Shown one piece after another: positions 1 to 16,427 of a stretch of 54,442 bases of DNA (its first letter is position 1; every line of letters starts with the position of its first letter). The notes beneath the pieces were generated by a model that ran no database searches, was not told the origin of the DNA, and saw only the letters and a list, made by a program, of their open reading frames with translations. Source of the stretch: an uncultured Pseudomonadota bacterium (GTDB lineage: Bacteria > Pseudomonadota > Gammaproteobacteria > Methylococcales > Methylomonadaceae). The DNA is taken from NCBI GenBank assembly GCA_903867225.1, contig CAIPQN010000042.1, positions 166,992 through 221,433 on the forward strand, in the 5' to 3' direction. Made by a program: the position numbers and the translations under genes.

Positions 1-3000
1 GATGCTAGCAATTTAATGGTTAGTTCATTAGTAAATAGCATTAGCAAAGCCAAAGAAACAAAAATTGATTTAAACAATACAGCATTTTTAAAAGATGTAT
101 TTGTAGGCGCAACCACTGTTAATAAAGATATTAAATTCGATACAACAAAAATAAATTTGGTTGATGATGTTTTTGCAACACTGATTGCTGACACTTCCGC
201 AAACATTGATAGTGCTTTAAGTAATACAGCACAAAATACGGTTACATTGTTGAGTAATGTTTCAAGAGTATCCAATTTCACTCAAAACACGGCAACGAAT
301 TCGATTGTTATCGCTATTTCAAATCCTAAAACATTTAATGAAAAAACATTACTGGATGCGTTAACGGGTTCAAAAGCTGATGAGGCGATTAAAAAAACAG
401 TGATTCCTGATGGTAATTTAACACCGCCACCAATACCTACTGATATTGGTAGTAATACCAACAACAATACAGGCAATAATTCATCAACATCAACATCAAC
501 AGGTGGTGGAGCCACCACAACTACAACAACAACAACACCAACAACTCCTGTTTTAACATTAAGTTTAGCCAGTGATACAGGAAGTAGCTCTACAGACAAA
601 ATAACAAGTAGCGGACAAATCAACGTAGCCAATTTAGTAGGTGGGCGTATTTGGGAATACAGTATTAATGGCGGTGCAAAGCAAACAGGTAGTGGTTCTA
701 GCATTTCTATTATCGGTGATGGCACTAAATCCGTTGTTGTTACACAAACCGATGCTAAAAACGTTGAAAAAACGGCGAGTTTGACTTTCACACTAGATAC
801 CACGCCACCTGCTGCTCCTACAGTGGAATCTAAAAGTGGTGTTGTGACAGATGGAACGGTGAAGGTCACAGCAACTGAAAGCAATTGGAAATACAGTGTT
901 AATGGAACTGAGTCGGTTGGAAGTGGTTCAAGTTTTCCCGTTACGGGTGATGGCAATAAATCTGTTCTTGTTTGGCAAACTGATCAGGCTGGTAATGATT
1001 CAAGTAAGGCAAGTTTAAATTTCGTTTTATCAACGGGCGTTCTAGCCACACCGACATTAAGTTTAGCCGCCGACACAGGAAGTAGCTCTACGGATAACAA
1101 AACAAGTAACGGACAAGTTAATGTTTTTAATTTAGTTAGTGGCACGACTTGGCAATATAGTCTTGATGGAAATAATTGGATTACAGGAAGCGGCTCAAGT
1201 TTTACGGTTTCAGGTGATGGTTCTAAATCCGTTTCAGTTAAACAAACAAACGCAAGTGGAAAAGTGGCAACCTCTACGCCACTTACGTTTGATTTGGATA
1301 CGTCTGCCCCTGCGAAACAACCTGTTTTAACGTTGAGTTCTTATATAACAACTAGTTCAGATGAAAAATTGGCTAAGTCAGGGAATGTTAATGTAGCGAA
1401 TTTAGAAAGTGGTGCAACTTGGCAATACAGCACAGATAGTGGCAAAAGTTGGGTTTTAGGCAGCGGTTCCAATTTCACACTTACAGGCGATGGAACTAAA
1501 TCTGTTTTAGTTAAACAAACGGATACAGCAGGAAATTCAACACTTAGTGAATCGTTAATTTTCAAACTTGATACGACAGCCCCAGCAACGCCCGTTTTAA
1601 GTTTGGTTGAAGATACTGGAAATCCAACAGACAACATTACTGGTAACGGTGGTGTTAAATTTACCAATTCAGAAACTAGCGCATTGTGGTATTACAGCAC
1701 TGACGATAATACTTGGACACCAGGAAATGGCTCGACTTTCACAATTACAGGCGATGGCAGCAAATCTGTTTTTGTTAAACAAATTGATATTGCTGGCAAT
1801 GAATCAATTCATGGGCGTTTAAATTTCACTTTAACTGCAACAAAACCATCGGCACCTACATTGTCATTAGCATCTGATACAGGAAATCCATCAGATAGCA
1901 TTACCAATAATGGACAAGTGAATGTCTTTGGTTTGAACAGTGGTTCAAGTTGGCAATACAGTATCGACAACGGTACGAACTGGATAACAGGTAACGGCTC
2001 GAATTTTTCTGTTTCAGGCGACGGTACTAAAACAGTTTTAGTCAAACAAATCGATTCTTCTGGTAACAGTTCAACGATTAGTACATTAGGTTTTTCATTA
2101 GTTACTTCATTACCTGCAACGCCGTCAATCGATAGTATTTCAAGCGATGGACAAGTAAATATATCTGGCTTGGTGAGTAATGGAATTTGGCAATATAGCG
2201 TTGATGGCGTTTCTAATGTTGGCAGTGGGAGCAGTTTTAAAATAACAGGAAATGGCACAAAATCGTTGCTTGTTAAACAAACTGATGGAGCTGGGAATGT
2301 TTCTGCTGATGCTTCATTATTAAATTTTGCTTTTGTGTCGGGAGTTTATACGGGAACACCGCCTAACGTAGCCGCTAATTTAGATTCACTCGAAGCACAA
2401 TCAATAACGTTATCAGCAATTAAACTAATTAGCAGTGTGAAAAAAACAAGTTTAATTCTGACTAAATCACAATTACTGAATAATCAAAATGCCTTAAGTC
2501 GAATTGATGGTACAACTTTTGGGGCAACTGGCTCTTTTCAAATAGAGCTGGAAATTAAATCTGAACTAACAGCAAAAGAAATGGCGAGTTTGTTGCCTAC
2601 GGTAGGCGCAAAAATAAAATCGAATTCAGTCACAATTAAAGATAGCGCACAAAATGTACAAATATATTGGGATCAATTGCACGCACTAAATATCGATCCG
2701 CCGATTGGTGCAATTTATTTCACGGATAAAGTGAAACCAAAATTATCATTGTCTTTAGGGCAATACGATAATGAACAGTTGTTATCTAATACCGAGCAAA
2801 GTGGGTTGTTAAAATTTATTAAATCACCCTACAGCTTGGTGGTTTATGACGTTCAAACAAATGATGCAATTACCGAAGCTCTTAATACTTCGATTTCATC
2901 TGTCACTATTACAGACACCGCAGCTGCAATATCAGCAAATTTTGGTAGCTTGATTAACATTTATAGTATTGGAAAATTAAATACGATTATTGTCACAGAC

Positions 3001-3663
3001 AATAAGGCGTTAGATATTTCTTCCTATAAAGATTTACCAAAAGCAGCTGACGTATTGAGCAAAGTTTCTTGGTTATCATCAATGTCAGATTTTATAAGTG
3101 ATTATAAAAACTCTGCCATATCTTTAATTACCGTAAAAGATTCTGCTGAATCCGTGCAAGCCAATATCGATTTGTTACAAGCGAGCATAAAAAAATTATT
3201 GACGATTGAGCTAACTGACAATTCGATTCCGACGATTACACTTTCAGAACAACAGTATAAAAATGATTTAAGTGTGTTAAATAAAATAAATACGGCACAT
3301 GAACTCACAATTATCGCAGGCTCACCCGATGCAGTCAGTTCGGTAGTTTTGGCGACAACAATGCAGATGAGTTTTAACGGTATTCCAAGTAATCTTGATT
3401 TAAGTGGCAACACGCCAATCACGATCAGTTATGACGTAGCAACGACTGATGAAGTGCTAAAAGTTTCTCATTTTGGCGAAGATGCCGACAAATTGCTGTT
3501 TAAAAATTTTGATGGCAACACCATTGAAATGCTTGATACGCAAATAAATAATCAAGCGGCAACGTGGCTGCATAGCAGTTCTGACAATAATCACGGCATT
3601 GTTCTTCTTGGTATACAAACGGCTAATTTAGTTATTAGTGATAATTTAGTAACCCTAATTTAA
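1..3663 (+). CDS. Large Ig-like repeat surface/adhesin protein, 5' part outside window
   Basis: The frame is open from base 1, so the N-terminus lies upstream; about 1220 residues are visible. In order: about 140 residues without a recognised domain, a Thr/Ser/Gly/Asn-rich linker (bases about 430-545), seven tandem Ig-like repeats of about 75-95 residues (bases about 546-2345), and about 430 residues of C-terminal modules. The Ig repeats share the pattern WQYS, GSGSSF, GDGxKSV, VKQTDxAGN. The C-terminal part repeats a pattern of the type TDTAAAISANF / KDSAESVQANIDLL. No transmembrane segment is seen. The stop lies 4 bases before a TpsB transporter gene, so it is probably co-transcribed with the secretion genes. 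An extracellular adhesin or surface-structural role is inferred from the architecture. Export could be by the TpsB or by another route; the missing N-terminus would decide. Confidence 0.75.
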   Translation, partial: DASNLMVSSLVNSISKAKETKIDLNNTAFLKDVFVGATTVNKDIKFDTTKINLVDDVFATLIADTSANIDSALSNTAQNTVTLLSNVSRVSNFTQNTATNSIVIAISNPKTFNEKTLLDALTGSKADEAIKKTVIPDGNLTPPPIPTDIGSNTNNNTGNNSSTSTSTGGGATTTTTTTTPTTPVLTLSLASDTGSSSTDKITSSGQINVANLVGGRIWEYSINGGAKQTGSGSSISIIGDGTKSVVVTQTDAKNVEKTASLTFTLDTTPPAAPTVESKSGVVTDGTVKVTATESNWKYSVNGTESVGSGSSFPVTGDGNKSVLVWQTDQAGNDSSKASLNFVLSTGVLATPTLSLAADTGSSSTDNKTSNGQVNVFNLVSGTTWQYSLDGNNWITGSGSSFTVSGDGSKSVSVKQTNASGKVATSTPLTFDLDTSAPAKQPVLTLSSYITTSSDEKLAKSGNVNVANLESGATWQYSTDSGKSWVLGSGSNFTLTGDGTKSVLVKQTDTAGNSTLSESLIFKLDTTAPATPVLSLVEDTGNPTDNITGNGGVKFTNSETSALWYYSTDDNTWTPGNGSTFTITGDGSKSVFVKQIDIAGNESIHGRLNFTLTATKPSAPTLSLASDTGNPSDSITNNGQVNVFGLNSGSSWQYSIDNGTNWITGNGSNFSVSGDGTKTVLVKQIDSSGNSSTISTLGFSLVTSLPATPSIDSISSDGQVNISGLVSNGIWQYSVDGVSNVGSGSSFKITGNGTKSLLVKQTDGAGNVSADASLLNFAFVSGVYTGTPPNVAANLDSLEAQSITLSAIKLISSVKKTSLILTKSQLLNNQNALSRIDGTTFGATGSFQIELEIKSELTAKEMASLLPTVGAKIKSNSVTIKDSAQNVQIYWDQLHALNIDPPIGAIYFTDKVKPKLSLSLGQYDNEQLLSNTEQSGLLKFIKSPYSLVVYDVQTNDAITEALNTSISSVTITDTAAAISANFGSLINIYSIGKLNTIIVTDNKALDISSYKDLPKAADVLSKVSWLSSMSDFISDYKNSAISLITVKDSAESVQANIDLLQASIKKLLTIELTDNSIPTITLSEQQYKNDLSVLNKINTAHELTIIAGSPDAVSSVVLATTMQMSFNGIPSNLDLSGNTPITISYDVATTDEVLKVSHFGEDADKLLFKNFDGNTIEMLDTQINNQAATWLHSSSDNNHGIVLLGIQTANLVISDNLVTLI
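546..2345 (+). repeat. Seven tandem Ig-like repeat units within the surface protein
   Basis: The coding sequence repeats with a period of about 225-285 bases. Each unit holds a W(Q/E)YS core, a GSGSS or GNGS turn and a GDGxKSV strand followed by a KQTDxAGN motif. Units 2, 5 and 7 are the most diverged, so this is an old domain array rather than a recent perfect tandem duplication. Such arrays can change copy number by recombination. Just before it (about 480-545) is a run of ACA/ACATCA-type triplets encoding Thr/Ser, all in multiples of three. Confidence 0.8.
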
Positions 3664-3667
3664 TTTT

Positions 3668-5332
3668 ATGGCACATAGAAAAAAACTATTGATAGCTGGC
3701 GCACTGATATTGACGCAAAACGCATGGGCAGCAGGTGGCAGCGAATCCAATGATCGCCCAAGTGCTAAATTACCTTCGCGACCTGAATTTTTAACGCCGA
3801 AAGCAGGTTTTAATTTACCGACATTGCCTGAATCGACAACGCTACTCGCGCCAAGTAGCGGCAAATTTTTTATTGAGCGTTACACTTTTTCAGGAAATAC
3901 GGTTTTTGATGAAAGTGAATTACACGTCCTCACAACACCATACGAAAATCGTGACGTTCGCACCGATGAATTAGAAGAATTGCGCCAAACTATCACGCGC
4001 TATTACATCAATCATGGTTACATCAATTCAGGCGCACGCATTACGAAAGACGCGCTCAAAAATGGCGTGCTGAATTTTGAAATTGTCGAAGGCAAACTCG
4101 ATGACGTGCAAATTCACGGACAAGAAGGTTTGAACGAAAATTACATTAAAAATCGTTTGCGAGCGGGTGACGTGTTGAACGTCGATGATTTGCAAGAGCA
4201 ATTTCAATTGCTGCTTGTTGATCCATTGATTTCGACGTTAAGCGGAAATTTGTTGCCTAGCTCAAATCCTAATCACAGCACGCTTGATTTAAACGTCACA
4301 CGAGCGCGACCTTATCAACTCACTTTTTTCACCAACAACTATCGTCCGCCATCAATTGGCGCAGAAGCAGGTGGCGTGAGCAGTTGGGTGAGGAATTTAA
4401 CGGGTTGGGGCGATTTACTCGATTTTACGTTTCAAGGTAGCAAAGGTTTGTTGGCATACAACGGTGGCTGGAGCATTCCGATTTCGTCTTACGGCACACA
4501 AGCCTTTTTTCGTTTTACCGAAGGCGATTCTTCTGTGATTGAGCAACCGACGCAAAAACTCGATGTAAAAAGCAAAGTTCATAATCTTGAAGGCGGTTTC
4601 AGTCATCCAATTATTGATTCACTTCGTCGGAAATTAACGTTAAGCACCAGTTTTGCCGTGCGCGAAAACGAAACCACATTAGCGGGTAGACCATTTTCTT
4701 TTATTGCGAGCGAACCGACAGGACACACGCAAGTCACGGTTGTTCGTTTTTCTCAAGAACACATTGAACGCATGGAAAATCAAGTATTGGCGTTGCGCTC
4801 AACGTTTAGTTTTGGTTTGAATGCGTTAGGTTCAACGCCACGACGTAATTCTGTTGACCCAAGCAGTGATTTTTTTACTTGGTTGGGACAAGCGCAATAC
4901 GGTCACAAAGTGTTAGAAAATGGCGCACAGGTTGTTTTGAAAGGAAATACGCAATTTAGTAATCACGCGCTTTTGCCGCTTGAACGCATGGCAGTTGGTG
5001 GCGTAAATACGGTGCGCGGTTATCGAGAAAATCAATTAGTGCGTGACGAAGGTTTTAACACCAGCGTCGAGTTTCACTACCCATTATTTGGCGACGCAAA
5101 TTCAGAGCATTCACTTTCGCTGGTTCCATTTATGGATTATGGCGGTGCGTGGAATCTGGGCGAATCAGCAAATTATTTGCATTCAACAGGTATTGGCTTG
5201 AATTGGAAATTCAACCGACTTAACAGCGAGTTTTACTGGGCGCATAAAATTAACAGCGTTGAAAAAACAAAATATAACAATGATTTGCAAGATGACGGTA
5301 TTCACTTCCAAGTCAAACTCGATGCTTTTTGA
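3668..5332 (+). CDS. TpsB outer-membrane transporter (ShlB/FhaC/HecB family) of a two-partner secretion system
   Basis: Family members form a 16-stranded outer-membrane barrel that recognises its TpsA substrate with periplasmic POTRA domains. The 554-residue length is normal. An N-terminal signal peptide ends near NAWA-AGG. A linker is followed by a POTRA_2-like region beginning around residue 65 (FFIERYTFSGNTVFDESEL) and a second POTRA region (GKLDDVQIHGQEG), then the ShlB-type barrel. The hallmark L6-loop motif VRGY is present (GVNTVRGYREN), and the protein ends in Phe, the usual barrel-insertion signal. The gene sits 4 bases after the Ig-repeat gene, and its stop overlaps the start of the CHAT gene. 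The likely partner is the haemagglutinin-domain protein two genes downstream. Confidence 0.92.
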   Translation: MAHRKKLLIAGALILTQNAWAAGGSESNDRPSAKLPSRPEFLTPKAGFNLPTLPESTTLLAPSSGKFFIERYTFSGNTVFDESELHVLTTPYENRDVRTDELEELRQTITRYYINHGYINSGARITKDALKNGVLNFEIVEGKLDDVQIHGQEGLNENYIKNRLRAGDVLNVDDLQEQFQLLLVDPLISTLSGNLLPSSNPNHSTLDLNVTRARPYQLTFFTNNYRPPSIGAEAGGVSSWVRNLTGWGDLLDFTFQGSKGLLAYNGGWSIPISSYGTQAFFRFTEGDSSVIEQPTQKLDVKSKVHNLEGGFSHPIIDSLRRKLTLSTSFAVRENETTLAGRPFSFIASEPTGHTQVTVVRFSQEHIERMENQVLALRSTFSFGLNALGSTPRRNSVDPSSDFFTWLGQAQYGHKVLENGAQVVLKGNTQFSNHALLPLERMAVGGVNTVRGYRENQLVRDEGFNTSVEFHYPLFGDANSEHSLSLVPFMDYGGAWNLGESANYLHSTGIGLNWKFNRLNSEFYWAHKINSVEKTKYNNDLQDDGIHFQVKLDAF

Positions 5333-7638
5333 TGGATAAAAACATGATTAAAAAATTTTTATTATTTGCAGCATTAGGCATTGCATTTCCGCTAAAGGCG
5401 GCTGATTTTTCCGATACGTTAAAACAAGGACTTGAATGCCAAAAACAAGGTTTGCTAAATCAAGCGGTTGTGAAATTGGAAAAAGCAAAACTCGTTGCTC
5501 AATCTGCTGATGAACAAACGCAAATTTCAGGGGCATTAGGTCGCACTTATTATCAATTTCATCAGTACGAATTAGCCAAACCGCTTTTAGAGAAGGCTTA
5601 TCAAAATAGTGGTGGATTGCAAAAAGCGGATTACGCAAATTTGCTCGGCAATTTGCACAATAATCAACATGAAAATAAACAAGCCAAAACGTATTACACG
5701 CAAGCCGCGCAATTAGCCAAAGGCGATGCAATTTTAACAATGAAAGTCGCGTTAAATTTGGCGCGTAATTTAGATGCTGCAAAGCACCTTGAAACATTGC
5801 AAAAATTAAGCAATCAACTCGACGGCATTTCGGATGTCAGTGAACGTGCTGGATTAAGTTTGAGTTTAGGTGAACAAGCTAAAGCATTAGGCAAAGATGG
5901 TTTATCACTCGCTTACGATTCGTTTGAAAAAGCCCGCTTATTAAGCACGAATGAAAATTTACCCCGCATTCAAACAGAAGCTCTGGACGCACTTGCTTCG
6001 CTTTATGAAGATAGCAAAAGAATTGACGATGCTTTGCGCTTAACAAGAGAAGCCATTGCGTTAATGCAAGCAAACGAAGGGCGCGATATTTTATTCAATT
6101 TGGAATGGCGACAAGGGCGTTTGCTTCGTCAAAATGGGCAAATTGAAGCCGCAATATCCGCATATCAACGCGCAGTAGAGCATATTGAAGCGATTCGCCA
6201 AGACATTCCTGTTGATTATCAAAACGGACGCTCTTCATTTCGTGAAACGCTCGAACCTGTTTATTTAGGGCTTGCAGATTTATTACTCGAACAAGCCAAA
6301 AAAACACCCAATGACAATCAGCAATTATTGAAAAAAGCGCGTGATACCGTTGAGTTAATTAAACAAACTGAGTTGGAAGATTTTTTAGGAAGTCGCTGTA
6401 CCGTTGAAAGCGCACGCCAACAAATTGAGCAGTTGGATAATAAAACGGCGATTGTTTATCCGATTATTTTGCCGCAACGCCTTGAAATTATAGTCAGTAC
6501 ACAAAAAGGATTGACGCAATTTACTGTGCCTGTCGATGGCGTGACATTGAAAACTCAAGTGCAAAAAATGGCGCGTAATTTACGCAATCGATTACCTGCG
6601 ACGATGGCAACAAAACTTTATGGGTGGTTAATTACGCCAACAGAAGATTTATTGAAAGCGCAAGGTATTGAAACATTAGTATTTGTTCCAGACGGCGCGT
6701 TACGTTTGGTGCCAATGTCAGCACTTTATGATGGCAAACAGTTCTTAATTGAAAAATACGCTGTAGCAACTTCGCCTGGTTTAACGCTTTTTGATCCACG
6801 ACCGTTACAACACAAAGATTTAAAAACGCTGTTGCTCGGTATGAGTAATCCTGGTGCAGTGGTTGAAAAATTACCTGCAAAAGTGATTGGCGGTTTTCTT
6901 GATGTAGGTGGCGAAGAATCGGCGGCTTCGGGTTCAGCACCTGCTGAAAAACGTGAATTGACTGCATCTGACAACACGCGCAACATTTCAGACAAATCGC
7001 GTACTTTGCGAGAATTGGTAAAACTCAATAATGGTAATCTTGAACAAGCAATGCGAACCCCCGCGTTTATTGAAGGCATGAAAGACCAACTAAAATTGCC
7101 AGGTGTAAAACAAGAAGTCATGACGTTAAGTCAGCAATCAATAGGAAATACGTTGTTGCTTGATGAAGGTTTTACGCTGGAACATTTTAAAGAAGAAGTC
7201 AAACACGCTCCTTTTTCGATTGTACATATTGCATCGCACGGTATTTTTGGTTCTAAAGCAGAAAATAGCTTTTTGATGGCTTACGATGACTTGCTACATA
7301 TTGATGATTTGGAAATTTTGTTACGCGCTGAAAAATTTAAAAAAAATCCGTTAGAACTTTTAACCCTTAGTGCCTGTCAGACTGCTGAAGGTGATGACCG
7401 CGCACCGTTAGGGTTCACAGGGGTTGCGTTGAAAGCGAATGCGCGAAGTGCGATGGGAACGCTTTGGCCTATTTCAGATGAAGCGGCGTTCACTTTGATG
7501 ACGCAATTTTATAAAAATATCAACACGATGAGCAAAGTGAAAGCCTTGCAACAAGCGCAATTGAGTTTAATCAATCGACCTGAAATGCGAAATCCCTTTT
7601 ATTGGTCGCCATTTATTTTAGTAGGAAATTGGTTATGA
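5332..7638 (+). CDS. Exported TPR-CHAT domain protein (caspase-like peptidase)
   Basis: The ATG at 5332 shares bases with the stop of the TpsB gene (TGATG overlap); an in-frame ATG at 5344 (MIKKFLLFAALGIAF) may be the true start of the signal peptide, which ends near PLKA-A. About residues 20-290 are helical TPR repeats (LGRTYYQFHQYELAKPLL, LANLLGNLHNNQ, ALRLTREAIALMQ). The C-terminal 330 residues are a CHAT domain. The caspase-like dyad is present: His636 in HIASHGIF and Cys682 in LSACQTAEGD, followed by GFTGVALKANARSAMGTLW. CHAT proteins are known as substrate-cleaving peptidases, for example in gasdermin and Craspase systems. A periplasmic CHAT protein between TpsB and TpsA suggests a role in maturing or releasing the secreted protein. 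That role is inferred and not visible in the sequence. Confidence 0.88.
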   Translation: MDKNMIKKFLLFAALGIAFPLKAADFSDTLKQGLECQKQGLLNQAVVKLEKAKLVAQSADEQTQISGALGRTYYQFHQYELAKPLLEKAYQNSGGLQKADYANLLGNLHNNQHENKQAKTYYTQAAQLAKGDAILTMKVALNLARNLDAAKHLETLQKLSNQLDGISDVSERAGLSLSLGEQAKALGKDGLSLAYDSFEKARLLSTNENLPRIQTEALDALASLYEDSKRIDDALRLTREAIALMQANEGRDILFNLEWRQGRLLRQNGQIEAAISAYQRAVEHIEAIRQDIPVDYQNGRSSFRETLEPVYLGLADLLLEQAKKTPNDNQQLLKKARDTVELIKQTELEDFLGSRCTVESARQQIEQLDNKTAIVYPIILPQRLEIIVSTQKGLTQFTVPVDGVTLKTQVQKMARNLRNRLPATMATKLYGWLITPTEDLLKAQGIETLVFVPDGALRLVPMSALYDGKQFLIEKYAVATSPGLTLFDPRPLQHKDLKTLLLGMSNPGAVVEKLPAKVIGGFLDVGGEESAASGSAPAEKRELTASDNTRNISDKSRTLRELVKLNNGNLEQAMRTPAFIEGMKDQLKLPGVKQEVMTLSQQSIGNTLLLDEGFTLEHFKEEVKHAPFSIVHIASHGIFGSKAENSFLMAYDDLLHIDDLEILLRAEKFKKNPLELLTLSACQTAEGDDRAPLGFTGVALKANARSAMGTLWPISDEAAFTLMTQFYKNINTMSKVKALQQAQLSLINRPEMRNPFYWSPFILVGNWL

Positions 7639-10415
7639 AAAAGTCACGCTTTTTTTTCCCATTAGCGGTTTTACTTTGTCCAACGGTTATTCACGCCGAA
7701 GCGATAACAGATGGCAGTGTTGGCGCGATTAAATCATTAAGTGGTAATTTTGAAGTCCCCGCATCTTTGGGTACAACAAGCGGTACAAATCTTTTTCATA
7801 GCTTTCAAATGTTCAATATCAACAGTGGCGAAAGCGCGACTTTCACAGGCGCAAGCAATATCACCAACGTGATTAGCCGTGTGACAGGTGGGAGAAATTC
7901 GACCATTGACGGCACATTACGCTCGCAGGTTGGAAACGCAGATTTTTACTTTATCAATCCCGCAGGCGTGGTTTTTGGCAAAGATGCAAAATTAGATGTG
8001 CCTGCGTCTTTTTATGCTTCGACTGCTAATAATTTGAAATTTAAAGATGGTGTGAATTACAGCGCAGTGGATTTGAAAAATAATACGTTAAGCGTCAGTA
8101 CACCTGAGCAATTCGGAATGCTTGATGCAAACGCGCAAAACAATAATTTGTTGAACGTTGACGGCGCAACGCTCTCGGTCAATGAAAAACAAACTTTCGG
8201 ATTAGCGTCGGGCAACATCCAAATTAGCAACAATGCACAGCTTAACGCACCAGACGGCAAAATTCTTATCGCATCAAATAATCAAGCGGAAATCACAGGC
8301 AGTTTGGTGAATGCAGATGGAAATGGGCAGGGGAACATTGTCGTTTCAGCACAAGAATTAACCATTGAAAATAGCACTGTGACGGCTTCAAATATCGGTG
8401 AAACGAACATGAAATCCATCGATGGCGTTGAAATTACAACAGCAAATCTCAATTTAATCGACCATTCGCAAATTCGCTCCACGTCTTACGATGCGGGCGC
8501 AGGTGGTAACGTGAATATCAACGCATCTGGCAATATCAACGTCCAAAATGGTAGCGTGATTTCTGCACACAGTCTTGCATCAGGGAACGGTGGTGTGGTG
8601 AATATCAATGCTGCATCTTTAAATCTTGACGGTAAAAATCAAAGCGACACCGATTTTACGGGAATTGCCGCAAATGCCAATCCAAATAGTACCGCGCAAG
8701 CTGGGCAAGTCAACGTGGAGGTCAATTCTTTAAATATCGAAAATGGCGCACAAATGAATTCAAGCACCTTTGGTGAGGGTGATGCAAATTCAGTAACCGT
8801 TACCGCAAAAAATATCACTATTGATGGCAAAGGCAGTGCTTATGCAACAGGAATCGGTTCCAACGCAAATCCTGACAGTAACGGTCATGCGGGAAATATC
8901 GTTATCAAGTCAGACAACGTAAGCATTTCTAACGGCGGCATTATCAATTCAGCGACATTTAGTTCAGGCGATGCGGGGAGCGTTCAAATTGATGCAAAAA
9001 CGGTGGCAATTGACGGGCAAAATAACAAAAACAAAGTAACAGGTATTAGTTCCGATACTAATGGAAGCTCTGGGAACGCGGGGAAAGTCACGCTAAATGC
9101 CAAACAATTAACTATTAAAAATACTGGCACAATAAGTTCCAGTACGATGGGAAGCGGGCAGGGCGGCAGTGTTCAAGTTAACGCCGATACTGTAGAAATT
9201 AACGGCAAAGGCAGCGAAGATAATTTATTCACAGGCATTTTATCGAATGCAGTCGGAACGGGTAATGCTGGTAATGTTTCAGTTAAAGCAAATACGCTCG
9301 CGTTGACTGAAAAAGGTCGTATTGCATCAAATACTTACGGTAATGGAAACGGCGGTGATGTAAATGTTCAAGCAAAAAATGTAAGCATCAACGGCAACAA
9401 CAGCAGTGTTTATACTGGGATTGCATCGAATACCTACAACAATGGCGACGCAGGAACAGTCACTCTCAATGCTACTGACATTAACGTTGAAAATGCAGGG
9501 CGTATTACCACAAATACGCGCGGTCAAGGCAAAGCGGGAAATCTTGTTGTGAATGCCGAAAATATCACGATTGACGCGAAAAATAGCCTTTATTTGGCAG
9601 GTATAGCGGCAGCTGCAAGTCCAGAAAGTACGGGACAAATTGGAAATGTTGAGGTAGCAGCGACTAACAAATTAGTCATAAAAAATGGCGGTCAAATTAG
9701 TGTTCAAAATCGTGCAACCGTTGAACATCCAGAAACTATTACAGCGGGAACCATTTCAATTAAAGCTGGTGATGTGTATTTAAATAACGGTTTAATTAAC
9801 GCGCAATCAACAGGTAATGTTGATGCGAGTAATATCCGCGCTCAAATTTTACGCGGTTTATGGATGAATAATTCAGGCATTACGATGCAAGCTAAATCAG
9901 GAAATGGCGGCGCAATTTTCATGAATAGCGGCGCGGTGATTGATATGTTTTCGTCTGTGATTACGACCTCCGTTGAATCATCGACGGGAAATGGCGGAAA
10001 TATCACCGTTGCGACGCAAAATCTTGTGTTAGATGATGGGGCGGTTCAAGCAAATGCTTACAGCGGTAATGGCGGTGACGTTTTACTGCAAATTGATTCA
10101 CTTGTCGGCAGTCGAGAACAGGTTCAACAAGGTGGTAAAAAAATTGATATTGGCACAGCTCCTAAACAAACAATTTGGAAAACGAATTCTAATGTTCGCA
10201 ATGTTATTCAAGCCGCGTCTGAATTTGGTTTGAGCGGACAAGTTATTGTGACTTCGCCACAAATCAATTTAAGTGGTGTTCTCGCAGGGTTAAGCACTGA
10301 GCAGTTCGATCCAAATATCCTGCGCCAAGATTATTGTGCGACTGGAACGGGTAGTTCGTTGACTAATAAAGGATATGGCGCATTACCTGCTAAACCATCG
10401 GATTTGTTGTATTAA
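7635..10415 (+). CDS. Two-partner secretion substrate (TpsA), filamentous haemagglutinin N-terminal domain protein
   Basis: The ATG at 7635 overlaps the CHAT gene stop by 4 bases (ATGA) and begins a clear signal peptide (MKKSRFFFPLAVLLCPTV...HA). Residues about 25-170 form the TPS secretion domain, with the signature STIDGTLRSQ...NADFYFINPAGVVFGKDAKLDV. The following 700 residues are Asn/Gly/Thr-rich parallel beta-helix repeats (GNAGNVSVKAN, INGKGSEDN, IDGKGSAYATGI). The C-terminus carries the CATGTGSSLTNKGYGALP motif common in small CHAT-linked haemagglutinins. The 926 residues are short for an FHA adhesin and no toxin domain is seen. It should be secreted by the TpsB encoded upstream. The downstream hairpin at 10421 closes the operon. 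Confidence 0.92.
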   Translation: MKKSRFFFPLAVLLCPTVIHAEAITDGSVGAIKSLSGNFEVPASLGTTSGTNLFHSFQMFNINSGESATFTGASNITNVISRVTGGRNSTIDGTLRSQVGNADFYFINPAGVVFGKDAKLDVPASFYASTANNLKFKDGVNYSAVDLKNNTLSVSTPEQFGMLDANAQNNNLLNVDGATLSVNEKQTFGLASGNIQISNNAQLNAPDGKILIASNNQAEITGSLVNADGNGQGNIVVSAQELTIENSTVTASNIGETNMKSIDGVEITTANLNLIDHSQIRSTSYDAGAGGNVNINASGNINVQNGSVISAHSLASGNGGVVNINAASLNLDGKNQSDTDFTGIAANANPNSTAQAGQVNVEVNSLNIENGAQMNSSTFGEGDANSVTVTAKNITIDGKGSAYATGIGSNANPDSNGHAGNIVIKSDNVSISNGGIINSATFSSGDAGSVQIDAKTVAIDGQNNKNKVTGISSDTNGSSGNAGKVTLNAKQLTIKNTGTISSSTMGSGQGGSVQVNADTVEINGKGSEDNLFTGILSNAVGTGNAGNVSVKANTLALTEKGRIASNTYGNGNGGDVNVQAKNVSINGNNSSVYTGIASNTYNNGDAGTVTLNATDINVENAGRITTNTRGQGKAGNLVVNAENITIDAKNSLYLAGIAAAASPESTGQIGNVEVAATNKLVIKNGGQISVQNRATVEHPETITAGTISIKAGDVYLNNGLINAQSTGNVDASNIRAQILRGLWMNNSGITMQAKSGNGGAIFMNSGAVIDMFSSVITTSVESSTGNGGNITVATQNLVLDDGAVQANAYSGNGGDVLLQIDSLVGSREQVQQGGKKIDIGTAPKQTIWKTNSNVRNVIQAASEFGLSGQVIVTSPQINLSGVLAGLSTEQFDPNILRQDYCATGTGSSLTNKGYGALPAKPSDLLY

Positions 10416-10420
10416 AATAG

Positions 10421-10462
10421 GATAGTCCCTTGTATCTTAAAACATGATGGCAAGGGACTATC
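10421..10462. terminator. 12-bp perfect inverted repeat between convergent genes
   Basis: GATAGTCCCTTG (10421-10432) pairs perfectly with CAAGGGACTATC (10451-10462) across an 18-base loop. It lies between the end of the haemagglutinin gene and the end of the convergent MFS gene. The position suits a bidirectional terminator, but neither strand has a long T run, so a protein-binding site or a relic of a mobile end is possible. Confidence 0.5.
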
Positions 10463-10503
10463 GAAAATTGTGAGCCGCTCAATTTGAGGTTTAACAATGT
10501 CTG

Positions 10504-11724
10504 TCACGAAACAACCACTTTCGGAAATCGATCCATTTTGCGTAACACTGGAAACGCAAACACACACACCAGCGTTACGCCTATCGTCAAACACCCGCCA
10601 ACAATCACCGCTGGTACAACGCCTAAAAATGCGGCTGTCATGCCTGATTCAAATTCGCCCAACTCATTCGACGCACCAATAAAAACCGAATTGACCGCGC
10701 TGACACGCCCACGAATTGCGTCGGGTGTTTCTAGCTGTACCAAAATATGCCGAATGTAGACGCTCACCATATCGCCCATGCCAATGAGAAATAATGCAAC
10801 TAACGAAACATAAAACTGTTCTGATATGCCGAACAACACCGTCGCGCCACCAAATATCAAAACGCCCGTGAACATCCACGCGCCTACTCGTCGCGTAATC
10901 GGGAAAAAACTTAACAGAATTCCCGTGATGGTTGCGCCCAATGCAGGTGCGCCGCGTAATAATCCCAAACCGACAGAATCAACGTGCAACACGTCACTTG
11001 CATAAGCGGGTAATAATGCCGTCGCGCCCCCAAATAATACTGCCAATAAATCTAACGACAACGCGCCCAAAATAATTGGACGCGAACGTACAAATTGCAG
11101 TCCTTCTAAAACACGATGCAACGACATCGGCTCACGTTTATTGGCTACAAAATTCACCTGAATTGGCAACATCAATAACACTGACATAGATAACAACACT
11201 GTGACGACGCTATAAACTGTTTCCGTACCGAACAAATATAACGCACCGCCTAACGGTGGCGCGGCAATAACAGCAATGTGATACAGCGACGAATTTAATG
11301 CCACCGCACTTGCCAAACTTTCAGTGGGTACTAAATTGACCAAAATTGCTTGCGCCGCTGGCATCATAAACGCTCGTGCCGCACCGTATAACGCCATCAC
11401 CGCAAACACGGGAATGACCGAAGTGAGTTCTTCTCGCGCAAAAAGTAGCAGTAACAAGCCACACAGTAATTCGATGAAAAAACACGTCAATACAATCCAA
11501 CGACGATTCCATTGATCAGCGAAATGCCCCGCAATCAGAATTAACAACGCAAACGGTAAAAATTGCGCCAGCCCAATCAATCCTAAATCCAGCGGATTAT
11601 TGGTTTGTTGATAAATTTGCCAACCAACGGCAACACTTTGAATCTGCACCGCCACGGTAGCGAGAAAGCGTGCAATAACAAAAAAGGTAAAATTTTTGTG
11701 TCGTAAAACGCTAAATGAAGTCAT
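10504..11724 (-). CDS. Major facilitator superfamily transporter (EntS-like, MFS_3 type)
   Basis: This is a 406-residue polytopic protein with about 12 predicted membrane segments. The N-terminal pattern SVLRHKNFTFFVIARFLATVAVQIQSVAVGWQIY and the loop AGHFADQWNRRWIV are typical of MFS_3/EntS-like exporters. A second-half region GDMVSVYIRHILVQLETPDAIRGRVSAVN is also characteristic. The substrate cannot be read from the sequence; siderophore or drug efflux are the usual roles in the family. It starts 6 bases after a 31-residue membrane peptide gene, lacks an obvious Shine-Dalgarno site, and is probably translated by coupling at the end of the symporter transcript. Confidence 0.85.
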   Translation of the reverse strand: MTSFSVLRHKNFTFFVIARFLATVAVQIQSVAVGWQIYQQTNNPLDLGLIGLAQFLPFALLILIAGHFADQWNRRWIVLTCFFIELLCGLLLLLFAREELTSVIPVFAVMALYGAARAFMMPAAQAILVNLVPTESLASAVALNSSLYHIAVIAAPPLGGALYLFGTETVYSVVTVLLSMSVLLMLPIQVNFVANKREPMSLHRVLEGLQFVRSRPIILGALSLDLLAVLFGGATALLPAYASDVLHVDSVGLGLLRGAPALGATITGILLSFFPITRRVGAWMFTGVLIFGGATVLFGISEQFYVSLVALFLIGMGDMVSVYIRHILVQLETPDAIRGRVSAVNSVFIGASNELGEFESGMTAAFLGVVPAVIVGGCLTIGVTLVCVFAFPVLRKMDRFPKVVVS

Positions 11725-11730
11725 AAGAAA

Positions 11731-11826
11731 CTAACGCATTCGCGCCAAACCTAAAACCACAAATATGACCAAAATCATTACAATTATTCTAATGGTTTCG
11801 AGCGTGTAATCATTTAATTCAATCAT
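11731..11826 (-). CDS. 31-residue single-span membrane peptide, unrecognised
   Basis: A short frame encodes 31 residues starting MIELNDYTLETIR and ending VVLGLARMR, with one hydrophobic span (IIVMILVIFVVLGL) followed by a positive tail, as in small inner-membrane proteins with the C-terminus in the cytoplasm. Its ATG lies inside the last codons of the symporter gene (8-base overlap). An AAAGGG-like ribosome site lies upstream. Its stop is 6 bases before the MFS start. The neat packing between two transporter genes argues that it is real, though it is too short to be certain. No family is recognised. Confidence 0.45.
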   Translation of the reverse strand: MIELNDYTLETIRIIVMILVIFVVLGLARMR

Positions 11827-13063
11827 GTTCTGACCCTTTTACTAATTTTTGTACTATCAAACTACCAATCATATCGCCTTCCACATTTGCCGCCGTCCGC
11901 AACGTATCGAGTAATCGATCAATCGGCAATAAAATCGCAATCGCTTCAGCGGGTAAACCCACAGATTGCAACACCATCACCATCGTCACCATACCTGCGC
12001 TCGGAATTCCAGGTGCGCCAATTGCGGCAAACATCGCCGTAAAAAATACAATCAATTGCTGTGTCAAATTCAAATCAATACCAACTAAATTCGCCACAAA
12101 TAATGCGGCGGCGGCTTCATAAAGTGCCGTGCCGTCCATGTTAATCGTCGCACCCAACGGAATCACAAATTGTGCGATTTCTTTGCGAACGTGCAAATTA
12201 TGTTCGGCGCAACGTAACGTAATCGGTAAGGTCGCGGAACTTGAACTGGTTGCAAATGCGGTAACTAACGCTTCTCTCGCGCCACGCCAAAAACGTAACG
12301 GTGTCATGCCAGTCAATAAATACAAAATCAGTGGCAACACGATAACGCCATGCAGTAATAAACTTCCTGTAACGACAGCGGCAAATTTCCCCAACGTGCT
12401 GAGTAATGCTAAATCTTGCGTAACGACTAATTTAATTAACAACGCCATAATCCCAAATGGCGCAATCGTCATAATCCAACGCACCATTTGCATCACAATT
12501 TCGAGCAATTCTTGTAACAGCGTGAGAATGTTTTTATAACGTTCGCCGCCAATCACCAACGCAACGCCTAGAAATAACGCAAAAATTAACACCGCCAACA
12601 CTTCACCTTGAGCCAATGCAGCCACGGGATTCATGAACAAACCATGTAAAAACTTGGTGAAAAACTCCGCTGGGCTTTGTTGTTTCGCCTCGAACTTACT
12701 CATCGCATTTTGGAACATCTCCAAATGCAAACCTTGTCCAGGGTGAAAAATGTGATTCGCCAATAATCCAACCACGATTGCCACAGACATCGAAAAGACG
12801 AAAAAACCGAGCGTATAAATCCAAACACGATGAATTTGTTTGTGAGCTTGTAAATTCGCCACGCCAACCGCAATTGATGTAAATACCAACGGAATTAGCA
12901 CCATTTTCAGTAAGTCGATAAACAATGTGCCAACTAAATTAGCCGCATATAAACTGGCTTGTGTCGTAGCGGAATCTTTGCCAAGCGAAAGTAATCCGAA
13001 ACCAAACGCCACACCTAAAAATGCGCCGAGTAGAATTTGCGTGTTGAGTGAAGGGAATTTCAT
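11819..13063 (-). CDS. Dicarboxylate/amino acid:cation symporter (DAACS/SDF family)
   Basis: A 414-residue protein with the GltPh-like fold: eight membrane helices and two re-entrant hairpins. The diagnostic motifs are visible: the serine-rich HP1 tip ATSSSSATLPITL, the TM7 motif PLGATINMDGTALYEA, and the HP2 region AAIGAPGIPSAGMV. The family couples Na+ or H+ entry to uptake of glutamate, aspartate or C4-dicarboxylates across the inner membrane; the exact substrate is not resolvable here. Its start overlaps the stop of the upstream membrane protein gene (ATGA), and it is followed by a tiny membrane peptide and an MFS gene. Confidence 0.93.
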   Translation of the reverse strand: MKFPSLNTQILLGAFLGVAFGFGLLSLGKDSATTQASLYAANLVGTLFIDLLKMVLIPLVFTSIAVGVANLQAHKQIHRVWIYTLGFFVFSMSVAIVVGLLANHIFHPGQGLHLEMFQNAMSKFEAKQQSPAEFFTKFLHGLFMNPVAALAQGEVLAVLIFALFLGVALVIGGERYKNILTLLQELLEIVMQMVRWIMTIAPFGIMALLIKLVVTQDLALLSTLGKFAAVVTGSLLLHGVIVLPLILYLLTGMTPLRFWRGAREALVTAFATSSSSATLPITLRCAEHNLHVRKEIAQFVIPLGATINMDGTALYEAAAALFVANLVGIDLNLTQQLIVFFTAMFAAIGAPGIPSAGMVTMVMVLQSVGLPAEAIAILLPIDRLLDTLRTAANVEGDMIGSLIVQKLVKGSEHD

Positions 13064-13551
13064 GTTGATGCCGTAAAGTTTTTGAGAAGCATGGCAATTT
13101 GAATTTTAATCGCGGCTTTGAATTTCAAACTAAGCTGATAAATCGCTGTTTGATGAATTACATCATGCGCCCAACGCAACACTCCAGTAATCGTGTTGTA
13201 AATTTTCGCAAACCAATTGAACGTCAATAATGCTATTTTAACCAAGCGAAAAATCCGAGCAATCAATAATGTGGTGAATAATTTAACACCGATTTCAACC
13301 AAAATACCTTCAACAATCGCGCCATGCGCTAACAAAACAACGGCAAGAACGTTAAACGGTGCAGCCAGAATCAGCGGAATCAAAAAGGTGAGTAAGGCTT
13401 TATTAGGCGAAGCATTTAATAGCCAGTTATCAAATTTTTCTAAATGCAGTACCTGCGAAAACCATTGTCCAGCAAGAGTCAGCGCGTCCCACAGCCATTC
13501 TTCAATAATAACAATGACGGCAAAAATAGACAGCAAGGATTTTTTAATCAT
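13060..13551 (-). CDS. Hypothetical inner-membrane protein (163 aa)
   Basis: I do not recognise the family. The start at 13551 is chosen because a GGAGG site sits 7 bases upstream and the product then opens with a hydrophobic segment (MIKKSLLSIFAVIVI). Two central hydrophobic stretches (LLTFLIPLILAAPFNVLAVVLL and IEGILVEIGVKLFTTLLIA) suggest three or so membrane spans, followed by a basic, amphipathic C-terminal tail. It lies 17 bases after the DUF2782 gene and overlaps the symporter start by 4 bases, so it belongs to the same transcript. Confidence 0.7.
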   Translation of the reverse strand: MIKKSLLSIFAVIVIIEEWLWDALTLAGQWFSQVLHLEKFDNWLLNASPNKALLTFLIPLILAAPFNVLAVVLLAHGAIVEGILVEIGVKLFTTLLIARIFRLVKIALLTFNWFAKIYNTITGVLRWAHDVIHQTAIYQLSLKFKAAIKIQIAMLLKNFTAST

Positions 13552-13568
13552 GCCCAAGCCTCCCTCCG

Positions 13569-13913
13569 TTACCATTCCAGTAAATTCCACATATTGACTT
13601 CTGCCCCACGATCTAACGAACTGCTGCGAACATCCATTTTTCCATCGCCATTGGTATCGCGTAAATAATAGGACAAACCCACATCAGGTGTGACTTTCAC
13701 CATATACAACCGTCCTCCACGACGATATTCTTGAATTGTCTTTTTGTCTTTGCGAACAATTGTAATATCGGGTTCTAACGTTTCGCCGCTTTTCACCGAT
13801 TTCGGCGGCTCTGGAACATCTGGAATGTTTTCTAAACGTGGTGGAGCATCGTCTTCAAGCGCGTAAACAGCAAAAGGTAACAACAATAAACTCATTAAAA
13901 TTAAACGACGCAT
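13569..13913 (-). CDS. DUF2782 family exported protein
   Basis: A 114-residue protein with a signal peptide (MRRLILMSLLLLPFAVYA-LE), a Pro-rich linker (PPRLENIPDVPEPP) and the conserved core EPDITIVRKDKKTIQEYRRGGRLYMVKVTP...YYLRDTNGDGKMD. This core is characteristic of DUF2782, a small gammaproteobacterial periplasmic family often found beside essential genes such as polA. No function is established. It follows glnL by 45 bases. Confidence 0.85.
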   Translation of the reverse strand: MRRLILMSLLLLPFAVYALEDDAPPRLENIPDVPEPPKSVKSGETLEPDITIVRKDKKTIQEYRRGGRLYMVKVTPDVGLSYYLRDTNGDGKMDVRSSSLDRGAEVNMWNLLEW

Positions 13914-13958
13914 AACTTATTCTCTTGGTTAAAAATGAAAAATGGGACGACAAAACTT

Positions 13959-15002
13959 TTACACAGAAAGTAAGGGCAGAATAATCGCAAAAACCGTTCG
14001 CCCTTTTTCACTGCTGCATTCAATCACGCCTTGATGTTGCGAAATTAAGGCTTGCGAAATTGATAATCCCAAACCTGTTCCTTCAACACGTCCCGTTACC
14101 ATGGGGTAAAAAATTTTGTTCAACATATCAGACGATATACCCATGCCATCATCAATCACTTCACAACGTAATGCTAATTTATAACGCTGGCGTTCAATTG
14201 TCACATGACGAGAAATGCGGGTTTTCAACGTCACATTTCCTGAGTCAGAAATAGCTTGAATAGCATTTCGCACAATGTTCAACACAGCCTGAATGAGTTG
14301 ATCTTTATCGCCCAACAAATCTGGAATACTCGGGTCATAATCGCCATGAATTTTGATATTTTCACCCACTTCCGTTTGAGCCAACCACCGCACACGTTCC
14401 AATACTTCGTGAATGTTGAGCATTTTTTTATTCGGCAATTCGTTTGAGCCGAGCATTCGATTGACCAGATTTTGCAATCTGTCCGCTTCTTCAATAATGA
14501 CTTGTGTATATTCTTTCAATTCATCATTTGGCAATTCCAAATCCAATAATTGCGCCGCGCCGCGCAAACCACCTAATGGATTTTTAATTTCATGCGCCAA
14601 CCCTTGAACCATCAAACGAGCAGTATTTTGTTGCGCGTGTAACTGTTCTTCTTGCGAAATACGAAGCCGATTATCAATCGGTAATAACTCAACCAAAATT
14701 TCATTGACCTGATTTTCTGAACCCAACGGTGTCACACTGAAATTCACAAAAATACTATGGCTGGCACGATGTAATTCTAGTCCGTAATCAATTAAGGGTT
14801 CGCCTGTATGTTGACAATGTTTTAGGTTGCTCACAAACGCCACATCAGATAGTTTAAATAACTGTTCAGCCGAAGTTTCTAATAATTGCCGTGCGCTATC
14901 AGCTAATAAAATTTCTGCCGCTGTATTTAAATAACGTAAATCTAAATTCGCATCGAATAATAAAACAGCGGTGTTTAAATTATCGAGCAGACGTTTATAC
15001 AT
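13959..15002 (-). CDS. glnL: Nitrogen regulation sensor kinase NtrB
   Basis: This cytosolic two-component kinase phosphorylates NtrC according to the PII/nitrogen state. The 347 residues match the family length. An N-terminal PAS domain (LLDNLNTAVLLFDANLDLRYLN) is followed by the HisKA box GLAHEIKNPLGGLRGAAQLL with phospho-acceptor His137, the N box NIVRNAIQAI and the G boxes DDGMGISSDML and EGTGLGLSISQ. No membrane segment is present, as expected. The usual partner glnG (ntrC) is not downstream; a DUF2782 gene follows instead. The gene abuts gltX with no intervening base and is probably co-transcribed with it. Confidence 0.93.
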   Translation of the reverse strand: MYKRLLDNLNTAVLLFDANLDLRYLNTAAEILLADSARQLLETSAEQLFKLSDVAFVSNLKHCQHTGEPLIDYGLELHRASHSIFVNFSVTPLGSENQVNEILVELLPIDNRLRISQEEQLHAQQNTARLMVQGLAHEIKNPLGGLRGAAQLLDLELPNDELKEYTQVIIEEADRLQNLVNRMLGSNELPNKKMLNIHEVLERVRWLAQTEVGENIKIHGDYDPSIPDLLGDKDQLIQAVLNIVRNAIQAISDSGNVTLKTRISRHVTIERQRYKLALRCEVIDDGMGISSDMLNKIFYPMVTGRVEGTGLGLSISQALISQHQGVIECSSEKGRTVFAIILPLLSV

Positions 15003-16403
15003 TTAAGCTTGAATGTGTGAAATGGCGCGTTGCAGACGGGCTAATGTTTTTTCTTTACCTAAAAGTGCAAGTGTAATATCAATCGACGGTGAAACACCGC
15101 TGCCACAAATCGCAACACGCAATGGTTGTGCAACTTTGCCCAAACCTAATTCTAATTTTTCAGCGGTATTTTTTACGACATCGTGCAAGGCTTCTTTTTC
15201 CCATGTTTGTAAATCTGCGAACGCAGTTTTTAATTCTGATAAAACGTTATCGCTGCCTTCTGAAAACGCTTTTTTGGCTGATTTTTCGTCGTAAGTTTCA
15301 AACTCTTGATAAAAATAACGACTTGCGTTTGCCATTTCGACCAGCGTTTTACAGCGTTCACGTTGTGCTTTGACAAGCTCAACTAAATCAACAGATTTAT
15401 CCGTATTTGCATCAATGCCGATTGCGCCTAAGTGCCAAATTAAATGCGGTACGATTTCAGATGGTTCGCTGTGCATTAAATAATGATGATTCAGCCACAA
15501 TAATTTTTCCATGTTGAACGTTGAAGCTGCGCCATTCACATCGTTTAAGTCAAAATGCTCAATCATTTCGTCGATTGAAAAAATCTCTTGATCGCCGTGT
15601 GACCAACCCAAACGCACTAAGTAATTGAGCAATGCTTGCGGCAAATAGCCTTCATCTCGGAATTGCATCACGCTGACTGCACCATGACGTTTTGAAAGTC
15701 GCGCTCCGTCTGAACCCAAAATCATTGGCAAATGCGCGTATTCTGGCAACGGCGCATTTAAGGCTTTCAGAATGTTAATTTGGCGCGGTGTGTTGTTAAT
15801 ATGATCATCACCACGAATAACGTGTGTAATTTTCATGTCCATATCATCGACAACGACCGTTAAATTGTACGTTGGCGAACCCTCGGTGCGAGCAATCACC
15901 AAATCGTCGAGTTCTTTATTCGCAACGGTAATATCGCCTTTCACTAAATCGGCAATTGTAATCGCACCCTCAATTGGTGTTTTAAAACGAATAACTGTTT
16001 TATCACTTTGCGATTTATGTGCGTCGCGACATTTACCGTTGTAACGAGGCTTTTCTTTTGCCGCCATTTGTTGTTCGCGCAACGTTTCTAATTCTTCTTT
16101 GCTGCAATCGCAATAATAAGCGTGACCCGTTTGAAGTAATTTCCCAATAATTTCTTTGTAGCGCGGAAAATTATGCGTTTGGAAAGTCGGCTCTGTGTCG
16201 TAATTCAAACCAAGCCATTCCATACCGTCAAAAATCGCTTGTACAGATTCTTGCGTTGAACGTTCTAAATCGGTGTCTTCGATTCTTAAAATAAATGTAC
16301 CGTTATGTTTGCGAGCATAAAGCCATGAAAATAAGGCGGTTCGTGCGCCACCAACGTGTAAATAACCTGTTGGGCTTGGCGCAAATCGTGTTGTAACTGT
16401 CAT
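15003..16403 (-). CDS. gltX: Glutamyl-tRNA synthetase
   Basis: Class I synthetase that charges tRNA-Glu with glutamate in the cytosol. The 466 residues match the bacterial enzyme. The HIGH-type box is PSPTGYLHVGGARTALF, the second signature is LSKRHGAVS, and the catalytic-domain motifs DTDLERST and VVDDMDMKITHVIRGDDHINNTPRQ are intact. A Cys pair (YCDCSKEEL) with a later Cys/His suggests the zinc-binding insertion. It lies 24 bases after ribD and directly abuts glnL, which places translation, nitrogen sensing and riboflavin synthesis on one probable transcript. Confidence 0.97.
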   Translation of the reverse strand: MTVTTRFAPSPTGYLHVGGARTALFSWLYARKHNGTFILRIEDTDLERSTQESVQAIFDGMEWLGLNYDTEPTFQTHNFPRYKEIIGKLLQTGHAYYCDCSKEELETLREQQMAAKEKPRYNGKCRDAHKSQSDKTVIRFKTPIEGAITIADLVKGDITVANKELDDLVIARTEGSPTYNLTVVVDDMDMKITHVIRGDDHINNTPRQINILKALNAPLPEYAHLPMILGSDGARLSKRHGAVSVMQFRDEGYLPQALLNYLVRLGWSHGDQEIFSIDEMIEHFDLNDVNGAASTFNMEKLLWLNHHYLMHSEPSEIVPHLIWHLGAIGIDANTDKSVDLVELVKAQRERCKTLVEMANASRYFYQEFETYDEKSAKKAFSEGSDNVLSELKTAFADLQTWEKEALHDVVKNTAEKLELGLGKVAQPLRVAICGSGVSPSIDITLALLGKEKTLARLQRAISHIQA

Positions 16404-16427
16404 TGTAAAAACTCAAAAAAATGAAAA

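Follow-up and report, generated by a model that had tools for sequence, protein, structure and literature searches.

The locus described here raises the question of why the gene for a CHAT peptidase should lie between those for a TpsB transporter and a TpsA adhesin, overlapping both. It begins a stretch of 54,442 nucleotides, hereafter the window (G000:C42:166992-221433), from a Methylococcales genome; G and L numbers denote genomes and the loci taken from them, G000 being the genome of the window. The protein families are known individually; in combination they amount to a variant form of two-partner secretion that has a clan CD protease encoded in the operon and a matching C-terminal module in TpsA. 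CHAT proteases have roles in CRISPR, in death pathways and in heterocyst control. If the reading developed below is true, an envelope role would be added to these, and there would be a reason for the clustering of CHAT, DUF928 and CHASE2 with filamentous haemagglutinin genes in cyanobacteria. No description of the TpsB-CHAT-TpsA combination was found in the literature searched, the partial coverage of which does not establish its absence. Excerpts of one paper give a filamentous haemagglutinin gene and the CHAT gene all2170 separately among phage-resistance mutations, with no link drawn there (PMC10811720). The searches also listed one paper with DUF928 and CHASE2 terms (PMC5587647) and one on the CHAT domain and T6SS in Bacteroides (PMC11854122).

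Genes of the locus and their junctions

Four open frames on the forward strand (1-3663, 3668-5332, 5329-7638 and 7602-10415) together fill positions 1-10415 of the window. Taking likely start codons into account, they are:

1..3663, + strand: Ig-repeat (Big_5/Big_13) protein, 3′ part of the gene (Pfam Big_13)
3668..5332, + strand: TpsB transporter of the ShlB/FhaC family with POTRA_2 (Pfam; signal peptide by eye; cysteine-free)
5332..7638, + strand: TPR-CHAT peptidase, exported by its look (frame listed as 5329-7638 from a TTG; likely start ATG 5332)
7635..10415, + strand: TpsA, with TPS secretion domain and β-helix type repeats (listed from TTG 7602; likely start ATG 7635)

A TpsA with a TPS domain (Pfam E-value 3e-30) thus adjoins a TpsB with POTRA (POTRA_2, 4.5e-18) and ShlB barrel (2.9e-26), as in two-partner secretion (type Vb). 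The protein encoded between them is of the TPR-CHAT type (PF12770; 2.1e-52 for CHAT, with TPRs), its CHAT domain lying behind the TPRs and containing a His/Cys dyad. Open frames and Pfam therefore back all four of the identities given in a preliminary description of this DNA, and the signal peptide that it placed on CHAT corresponds to a signal-peptide-like stretch seen by eye at the N-terminus. Its picture of genes four bases apart or overlapping is equally confirmed: there are four bases between the Ig stop and the TpsB ATG, the end of TpsB and the start of CHAT have TGATG at 5330-5334 in common, and the end of CHAT and the start of TpsA share ATGA at 7635-7638. Two scans for promoters and terminators showed no clear excess over shuffled sequences, with 8 promoter-like and 7 terminator-like sites against 16.7 and 9.1 in the first, and 12 and 6 against 11.9 and 3.5 in the second. 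An inverted repeat at 10418-10466, just 3′ of tpsA (ggatagtccctt...aagggactatc) and facing a convergent transporter-like gene, is a possible terminator, although it is absent from the list of the consensus scan.

The preliminary description also made the Ig giant a member of a four-gene unit, and this did not survive comparison. The complete Ig gene (L006:6788-12655, 1955 aa) starts about 2.2 kb before the window; on the same strand, a 3115-aa Ig-like gene ends 19 bases 5′ of it and is itself preceded, across a gap of 69 bases, by a 1110-aa RTX gene. Since the Ig gene and this same-strand run begin before the window, the count of four is a product of the window edge. An Ig homologue is present in just 2 of 60 CHAT loci (or of 32, if only those with 2.5 kb or more of sequence ahead of the CHAT-adjoining TpsB are counted), namely those of G000 and its closest relative G002, so that the Ig protein was rejected as a conserved fourth member; the Ig gene is a neighbour rather than a conserved member of the set. 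A four-gene surface operon with the Ig giant as a functional member would fit the four-base gap before TpsB, the identical gene order in G002 and the large RTX-/Ig-like genes near modules in G005, G010, G042 and G105 (similar-looking by eye except for phmmer matches). Nevertheless, the rarity of homologues makes such an operon most improbable, as does the Ig protein itself, in which a Pfam search finds no TPS domain and no signal peptide is visible by eye. Its Big_5 repeats begin at residue 3. Possible type I secretion substrates are the Ig protein (L006:6788-12655) and the products of the other large genes, of RTX, FG-GAP and Ig-like kind, that precede the window in the same orientation (L005:3-2252, 5018-8350, 8420-17767).

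The gene set in Methylococcales, cyanobacteria and T6SS loci

What is conserved is the set TpsA-TpsB-CHAT, to which DUF928 and a CHASE2 sensor are added in some cases. It recurs in Methylococcales and on cyanobacterial plasmids, and hence in two phyla. In 43 of 60 cases a CHAT of the TPS-linked type follows TpsB immediately, in the same orientation and within 400 bases, and in 25 of the 29 loci where more than 4.5 kb flanks CHAT on either side, TpsB is within 1 kb of it. Because L140-L159 and a large part of L180-L199 had been selected for CHAT near ShlB, TPS or module, shares among the 60 CHAT loci are biased upward. A less biased measure comes from 201 genomes, where, among the matches listed, ShlB was found within 3.5 kb at no fewer than 31 of 132 CHAT places, every one of the 31 on the same strand. 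The recurrence of TpsB-CHAT-TpsA suggested earlier is thus borne out, and the gene-neighbourhood comparison proposed with it gives a divided answer: CHAT is kept with TpsB and TpsA, the Ig gene is not. A scan of genome contigs yielded five loci, and the closest named relatives of the window CHAT, 89% identical, are in Methylococcales assemblies, which makes a methanotroph of this order the most likely source of the DNA.

The cyanobacterial plasmid sets comprise TpsB, CHASE2, TpsA, CHAT and DUF928 in Pseudanabaena; CHASE2, DUF928, a TpsA-like protein, TpsB, CHAT and TpsA in Nostoc; TpsA, TpsB and CHAT with divergent DUF928 and CHASE2 in Planktothrix; and a TpsA-like frame, TpsB and CHAT in Acaryochloris sp. 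Moss Beach, where no DUF928 or CHASE2 is listed nearby. Among 47 plasmid records, those common to the best 60 of 69 and the best 60 of 96 matching records, the distance between the best TpsA and the best CHAT is no more than 10 kb in 40 records and no more than 1 kb in 23.

In G000 itself, a DUF928 protein (L005:4171-4770), exported by its look, and a CHASE2-guanylate/adenylate cyclase protein (L005:2242-4158) are encoded side by side, divergent from the large genes. DUF928 ends 18.9 kb before tpsB; in other genomes its proximity, like that of CHASE2, is variable. Both genes lie outside the window and were therefore invisible to the author of the preliminary description, from which the TpsA C-terminal module is absent too. 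DUF928 is present in 15 of the 201 genomes, half as many as the module. Of the 18 places where it occurs, 13, the one in the window genome not among them, are within 12 kb of a listed CHAT, TPS or module.

An unexpected setting for a TPS adhesin module is its embedding in T6SS gene sets. TpsB-CHAT pairs, several of them with TpsA, occur beside or inside such sets in L140, L141, L142, L143, L145, L146, L148, L152 and L153 (from G064, G089, G112, G170, G181, G145, G187, G151 and G057, respectively). Pfam identifies ImpA_N, VipB, TssF and TssG in L140 and T6SS FHA_C, VasE, DotU and IcmF in L145; the context of the remaining loci was judged by eye from N-termini. By eye, the T6SS-linked TpsA proteins end in what looks like a diverged module below profile detection: a Cys is followed by a short run of serine and leucine and then by LP or IP, and a further Cys lies close to the terminus. 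Elsewhere, in G001, a 200-aa frame matching TpsB and the end of CHAT (L041:1-603) lies beside an intact TpsB-CHAT-TpsA set and looks like a deletion remnant.

The TpsA C-terminal module and its association with CHAT

The end of the window TpsA contains the following features:

10188..10412, + strand: C-terminal module, the last 75 aa (more conserved than the rest of TpsA in ten comparisons)
10335..10337, + strand: codon of the sole TpsA cysteine outside the signal peptide region (position −26)
10371..10388, + strand: GYGALP, an element of the module (most cyanobacterial forms examined have GRGGLP)

The module, of around 75 residues and located at or near the TpsA end, has a single Cys followed first by SSL or a similar triplet and then by GxG(A/G)LP. 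The Cys...GxGxLP arrangement, by which we propose to recognize TpsA proteins of the CHAT-TPS set, is present in the window TpsA. When the latter was compared with ten chosen relatives, the module was more conserved than the TPS domain and the middle of the protein in all ten. Cyanobacterial modules mostly read GRGGLP and are followed by a further tail that holds a second Cys.

Module and CHAT go together at the level both of genomes and of genes. The module was found in 30 of 201 genomes, 29 of which have CHAT, compared with 78 of the 201 overall; the sole exception, G108, has two weak module matches. Gene counts were made among the matches listed (150 TPS, 132 CHAT and 150 ShlB, and 15 CHASE2, these last confined to contigs of interest), CHAT matches weaker than about 1e-18 being mostly omitted. 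Among these 150 TPS proteins, 28 have CHAT within 12 kb, and 26 of them carry the module against 10 of the 122 others. Of the two exceptions near CHAT, one is a fragment at a contig edge and the other a broken frame beyond which the module follows, and all ten module-bearing TPS proteins away from a listed CHAT are in CHAT-bearing genomes. In the window genome, module and CHAT are each matched only once, both times at this locus; a second TPS protein, a 3274-aa frame, lies elsewhere (L004 and L052, G000:C41).

The Fisher value for the module-CHAT link, 9e-19, is overstated, since shared descent inflates the correlation. When 91 TPS domains are placed in a tree, those of CHAT-linked proteins, whether from cyanobacteria, Methylococcales or T6SS loci, fall on one side of a branch with support 95/96. 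With labels as given, the tree requires three changes, two unlabelled rows lying inside the CHAT group. Both of these, seen in cut loci, proved to be CHAT-linked, L081 being the place of L186 and L199:0-872 the gene of L146:11868-12872, so the proteins are read as one group and no independent gains are claimed. By their TPS domains the CHAT-linked TpsA proteins are one old lineage, so that the association reads as old and kept rather than repeatedly gained.

At 13 of the 48 CHAT loci with TpsB in view (L140-L145, L147, L149-L151, L153, L171 and L192), profiles detect neither TpsA nor module. Six of the genomes concerned carry the module on other contigs, and a diverged TpsA end is seen, by eye only, at some of the remaining loci.

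LapG (PF06035) has no match in G000, an assembly about 95% complete. Replacement of LapG by CHAT across the order was considered and rejected: LapG is present in 5 of the 30 module genomes and in 55 of the other 171, which is not a significant avoidance (p = 0.13).

A proposed role for the CHAT protease

Three residues of the CHAT protein are of particular interest:

7237..7239, + strand: codon of dyad residue His637, in SHG (from alignment)
7375..7377, + strand: codon of dyad residue Cys683, in SAC (from alignment)
6397..6399, + strand: codon of Cys357, second invariant cysteine of TPS-linked CHATs (numbering from TTG 5329)

A natural fusion joins a protein of this type directly to a TpsA. 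Plasmid pREC3 of Acaryochloris marina MBIC10699 (L062) encodes, in one 1774-aa frame annotated as a single CHAT domain protein, a TPS domain, the module and a TPR-CHAT with dyad; the module has Cys896 and GRGGLP from residue 910, and the joint is just behind it. The fusion, a single case, adjoins DUF928; the 20.5 kb covered at this locus contain no annotated TpsB.

Together, TpsA and CHAT have the appearance of a self-contained system by which a surface protein is anchored or released. We propose, with about an even chance of being right, a two-partner secretion system with its own operon-encoded protease, CHAT, acting in the manner of LapG on a C-terminal anchor of TpsA. TpsB would export the adhesin, the C-terminal module (Cys, SSL...GxGxLP) exiting last and being held, at least briefly, at the periplasmic face of TpsB. 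The exported TPR-CHAT would bind the module through its TPR part and its His/Cys dyad would cut TpsA in or near the module, a cut that would decide whether the adhesin is anchored, matured or released. DUF928 and the CHASE2-cyclase, a sensor domain joined to a nucleotide cyclase, may form a control arm, in the role that LapD has toward LapG. We favour this reading because of the co-occurrence of module and CHAT, the TpsA-CHAT fusion, the start-stop overlaps, the cyanobacterial gene sets and the conservation of the module; binding, cleavage, anchoring and control by CHASE2/DUF928 are what we infer from them. The maturation protease travelling with its secretion system, which the preliminary description offered as a possibility, stands as the best reading, in the form of a maturation or anchor protease, but its cleavage of TpsA is a deduction. 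The protease gene overlaps those of both partners and the module is its candidate site; the natural fusion and the lineage-specific cysteine Cys357 offer direct experimental handles.

The nearest known parallel is CdrA of Pseudomonas aeruginosa. Excerpts from three papers (PMC5422565, PMC11898600, PMC4694147) describe a TPS adhesin that C-terminal cysteines presumably keep in place, the cysteine hook as PMC11898600 names it, and that periplasmic LapG cuts near its C-terminus under c-di-GMP control. The likeness to CdrA-CdrB/LapG/LapD thus lies in a TPS adhesin and a proposed periplasmic protease acting near its C-terminus. The window protease, however, is CHAT and not LapG (PF06035, Peptidase_C93), its gene overlaps tpsB and tpsA, and the putative control arm is CHASE2-cyclase/DUF928. 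For HMW1 and HxuA, the part of PMC5422565 that deals with them expects the TpsA C-terminus to stay periplasmic, locked in the TpsB pore. With these (HMW1/HMW1B, HxuA) the window TpsA would share a C-terminal anchor, in its case only proposed, but it has in addition the GxGxLP element and its own protease. A further likeness would be that to FhaB/SphB1, in the proteolytic maturation of TpsA that we propose, although SphB1 is a subtilisin autotransporter encoded apart.

The module could instead be a passive anchor of the HMW1 or CdrA hook type, CHAT travelling with the lineage and performing some other envelope task such as clearing stalled TpsA. The descent of CHAT-linked TpsA as a single lineage is compatible with this, as are the two C-terminal cysteines, such as a hook needs, of cyanobacterial, T6SS-linked and some other TpsA forms. 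Moreover, 6 of 20 control TPS proteins selected for absence of the module and of a nearby CHAT have a Cys in their last 60 residues (two of the 20 are cut before the end), so a C-terminal Cys alone is not specific. The window TpsA, on the other hand, lacks the cysteine pair; with one Cys it can form no intramolecular disulfide, unlike the HMW1/HxuA anchor. As the joint of the fusion just behind the module also argues against a purely passive role, we consider this explanation possible but rather unlikely.

Structure prediction bears on a different alternative, that CHAT is a periplasmic docking or chaperone protein whose TPR part holds the TpsA C-terminus and for which catalysis is secondary. 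AlphaFold (six rows) predicts the long TPR domain, about residues 43-292, with fair confidence and the CHAT domain poorly (mean pLDDT 55). In sequence searches of the PDB, the best 60 of 163 matches of the CHAT profile are all through the TPR part, and two CHAT-region queries gave no convincing match. The TPR domain would suit such a protein, and the fusion and gene overlaps are as compatible with binding as with cutting, but His637 and Cys683 are invariant in a 23-row alignment of the TPS-linked CHAT family, and we regard a docking role of this kind as unlikely. By eye, the stretch of the CHAT domain encoded at window 6860-7100 (CHAT residues ~510-590) is long, of low confidence and seemingly shorter in the cyanobacterial fusion.

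Cys357 sits between the TPR and CHAT parts, and its distribution sets the TPS-linked proteins apart. It occurs in all 53 linked CHATs (those with TpsA, TpsB or module within 8 kb, the fusion L062 being scored as linked through its own TpsA part) but in just 5 of 26 unlinked ones, 21 lacking it. These counts are based on 79 of 87 aligned CHATs; eight without both dyad residues were left out, among them L047 and L048, cut sequences which both have Cys357. Of the unlinked proteins with the cysteine, L182 and L183 adjoin DUF928 and L185 is at a contig edge, whereas for L184 and L195 no explanation is apparent. The window CHAT has Cys357, the second mark by which we would recognize the proposed CHAT-TPS set. 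Cysteines are absent behind residue 40 from most TpsB proteins and altogether from the window TpsB. Together with Cys357 and the sole TpsA cysteine, this suggests that a disulfide may form between TpsA and CHAT. A bolder reading would make CHAT a sortase-like enzyme: a mixed disulfide between the TpsA Cys and Cys357, the partner indicated by the cysteine-free window TpsB and by the need for Cys683 to stay free to act, would lay GxGxLP in the CHAT active site, where TpsA would be cut and possibly transferred to a surface acceptor under a CHASE2-cyclase/DUF928 switch. The second TpsA cysteine, where present, would lie in the tail to be removed. In type IX secretion the sortase PorU, a caspase-fold protease, acts on a C-terminal sorting domain at the outer membrane; CHAT and the TpsA module would take a PorU-like step in this scheme, although the likeness to caspase-fold sortase and sorting domain is one of analogy only. 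We hold the sortase-like reading to be quite unlikely.

Finally, CHAT could be an envelope or secreted protease of death or defence, carried or switched by TpsA, by comparison with the cytoplasmic roles of CHAT proteins. Excerpts of two papers report that TPR-CHAT acts in CRISPR defence (PMC9729208, PMC10028731), and in Craspase it cuts the protein Csx30, according to parts of PMC11106740 and PMC10028731; TpsB-CHAT sets, as seen above, also adjoin T6SS genes. Csx29 and the window CHAT are alike in combining TPR and CHAT protease with a protein partner, putative in the case of the latter, but Csx29 is CRISPR-linked whereas the window CHAT is TPS-linked, exported by its look and equipped with the second invariant cysteine, Cys357. 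Signal-like N-termini of the CHATs point to the envelope: a crude signal-peptide rule is positive in 46 of 57 CHATs of the TPS-linked family against 9 of 25 others. No effector or gasdermin gene is prominent in the conserved set, as judged from the gene sets described here. A death or defence function appears very unlikely, and the LapG-like protease remains our preferred reading.

Two further observations concern the range of the system. The TPS-linked CHATs at L153:7785-10589 and L192:6346-8994 have, by eye, lipobox-like N-termini, so that part of the CHAT family may be lipoproteins. At L159 (G134) and L190 (G097), two tandem module-bearing TpsA genes lie near a single CHAT gene, indicating that one CHAT may serve several adhesins.
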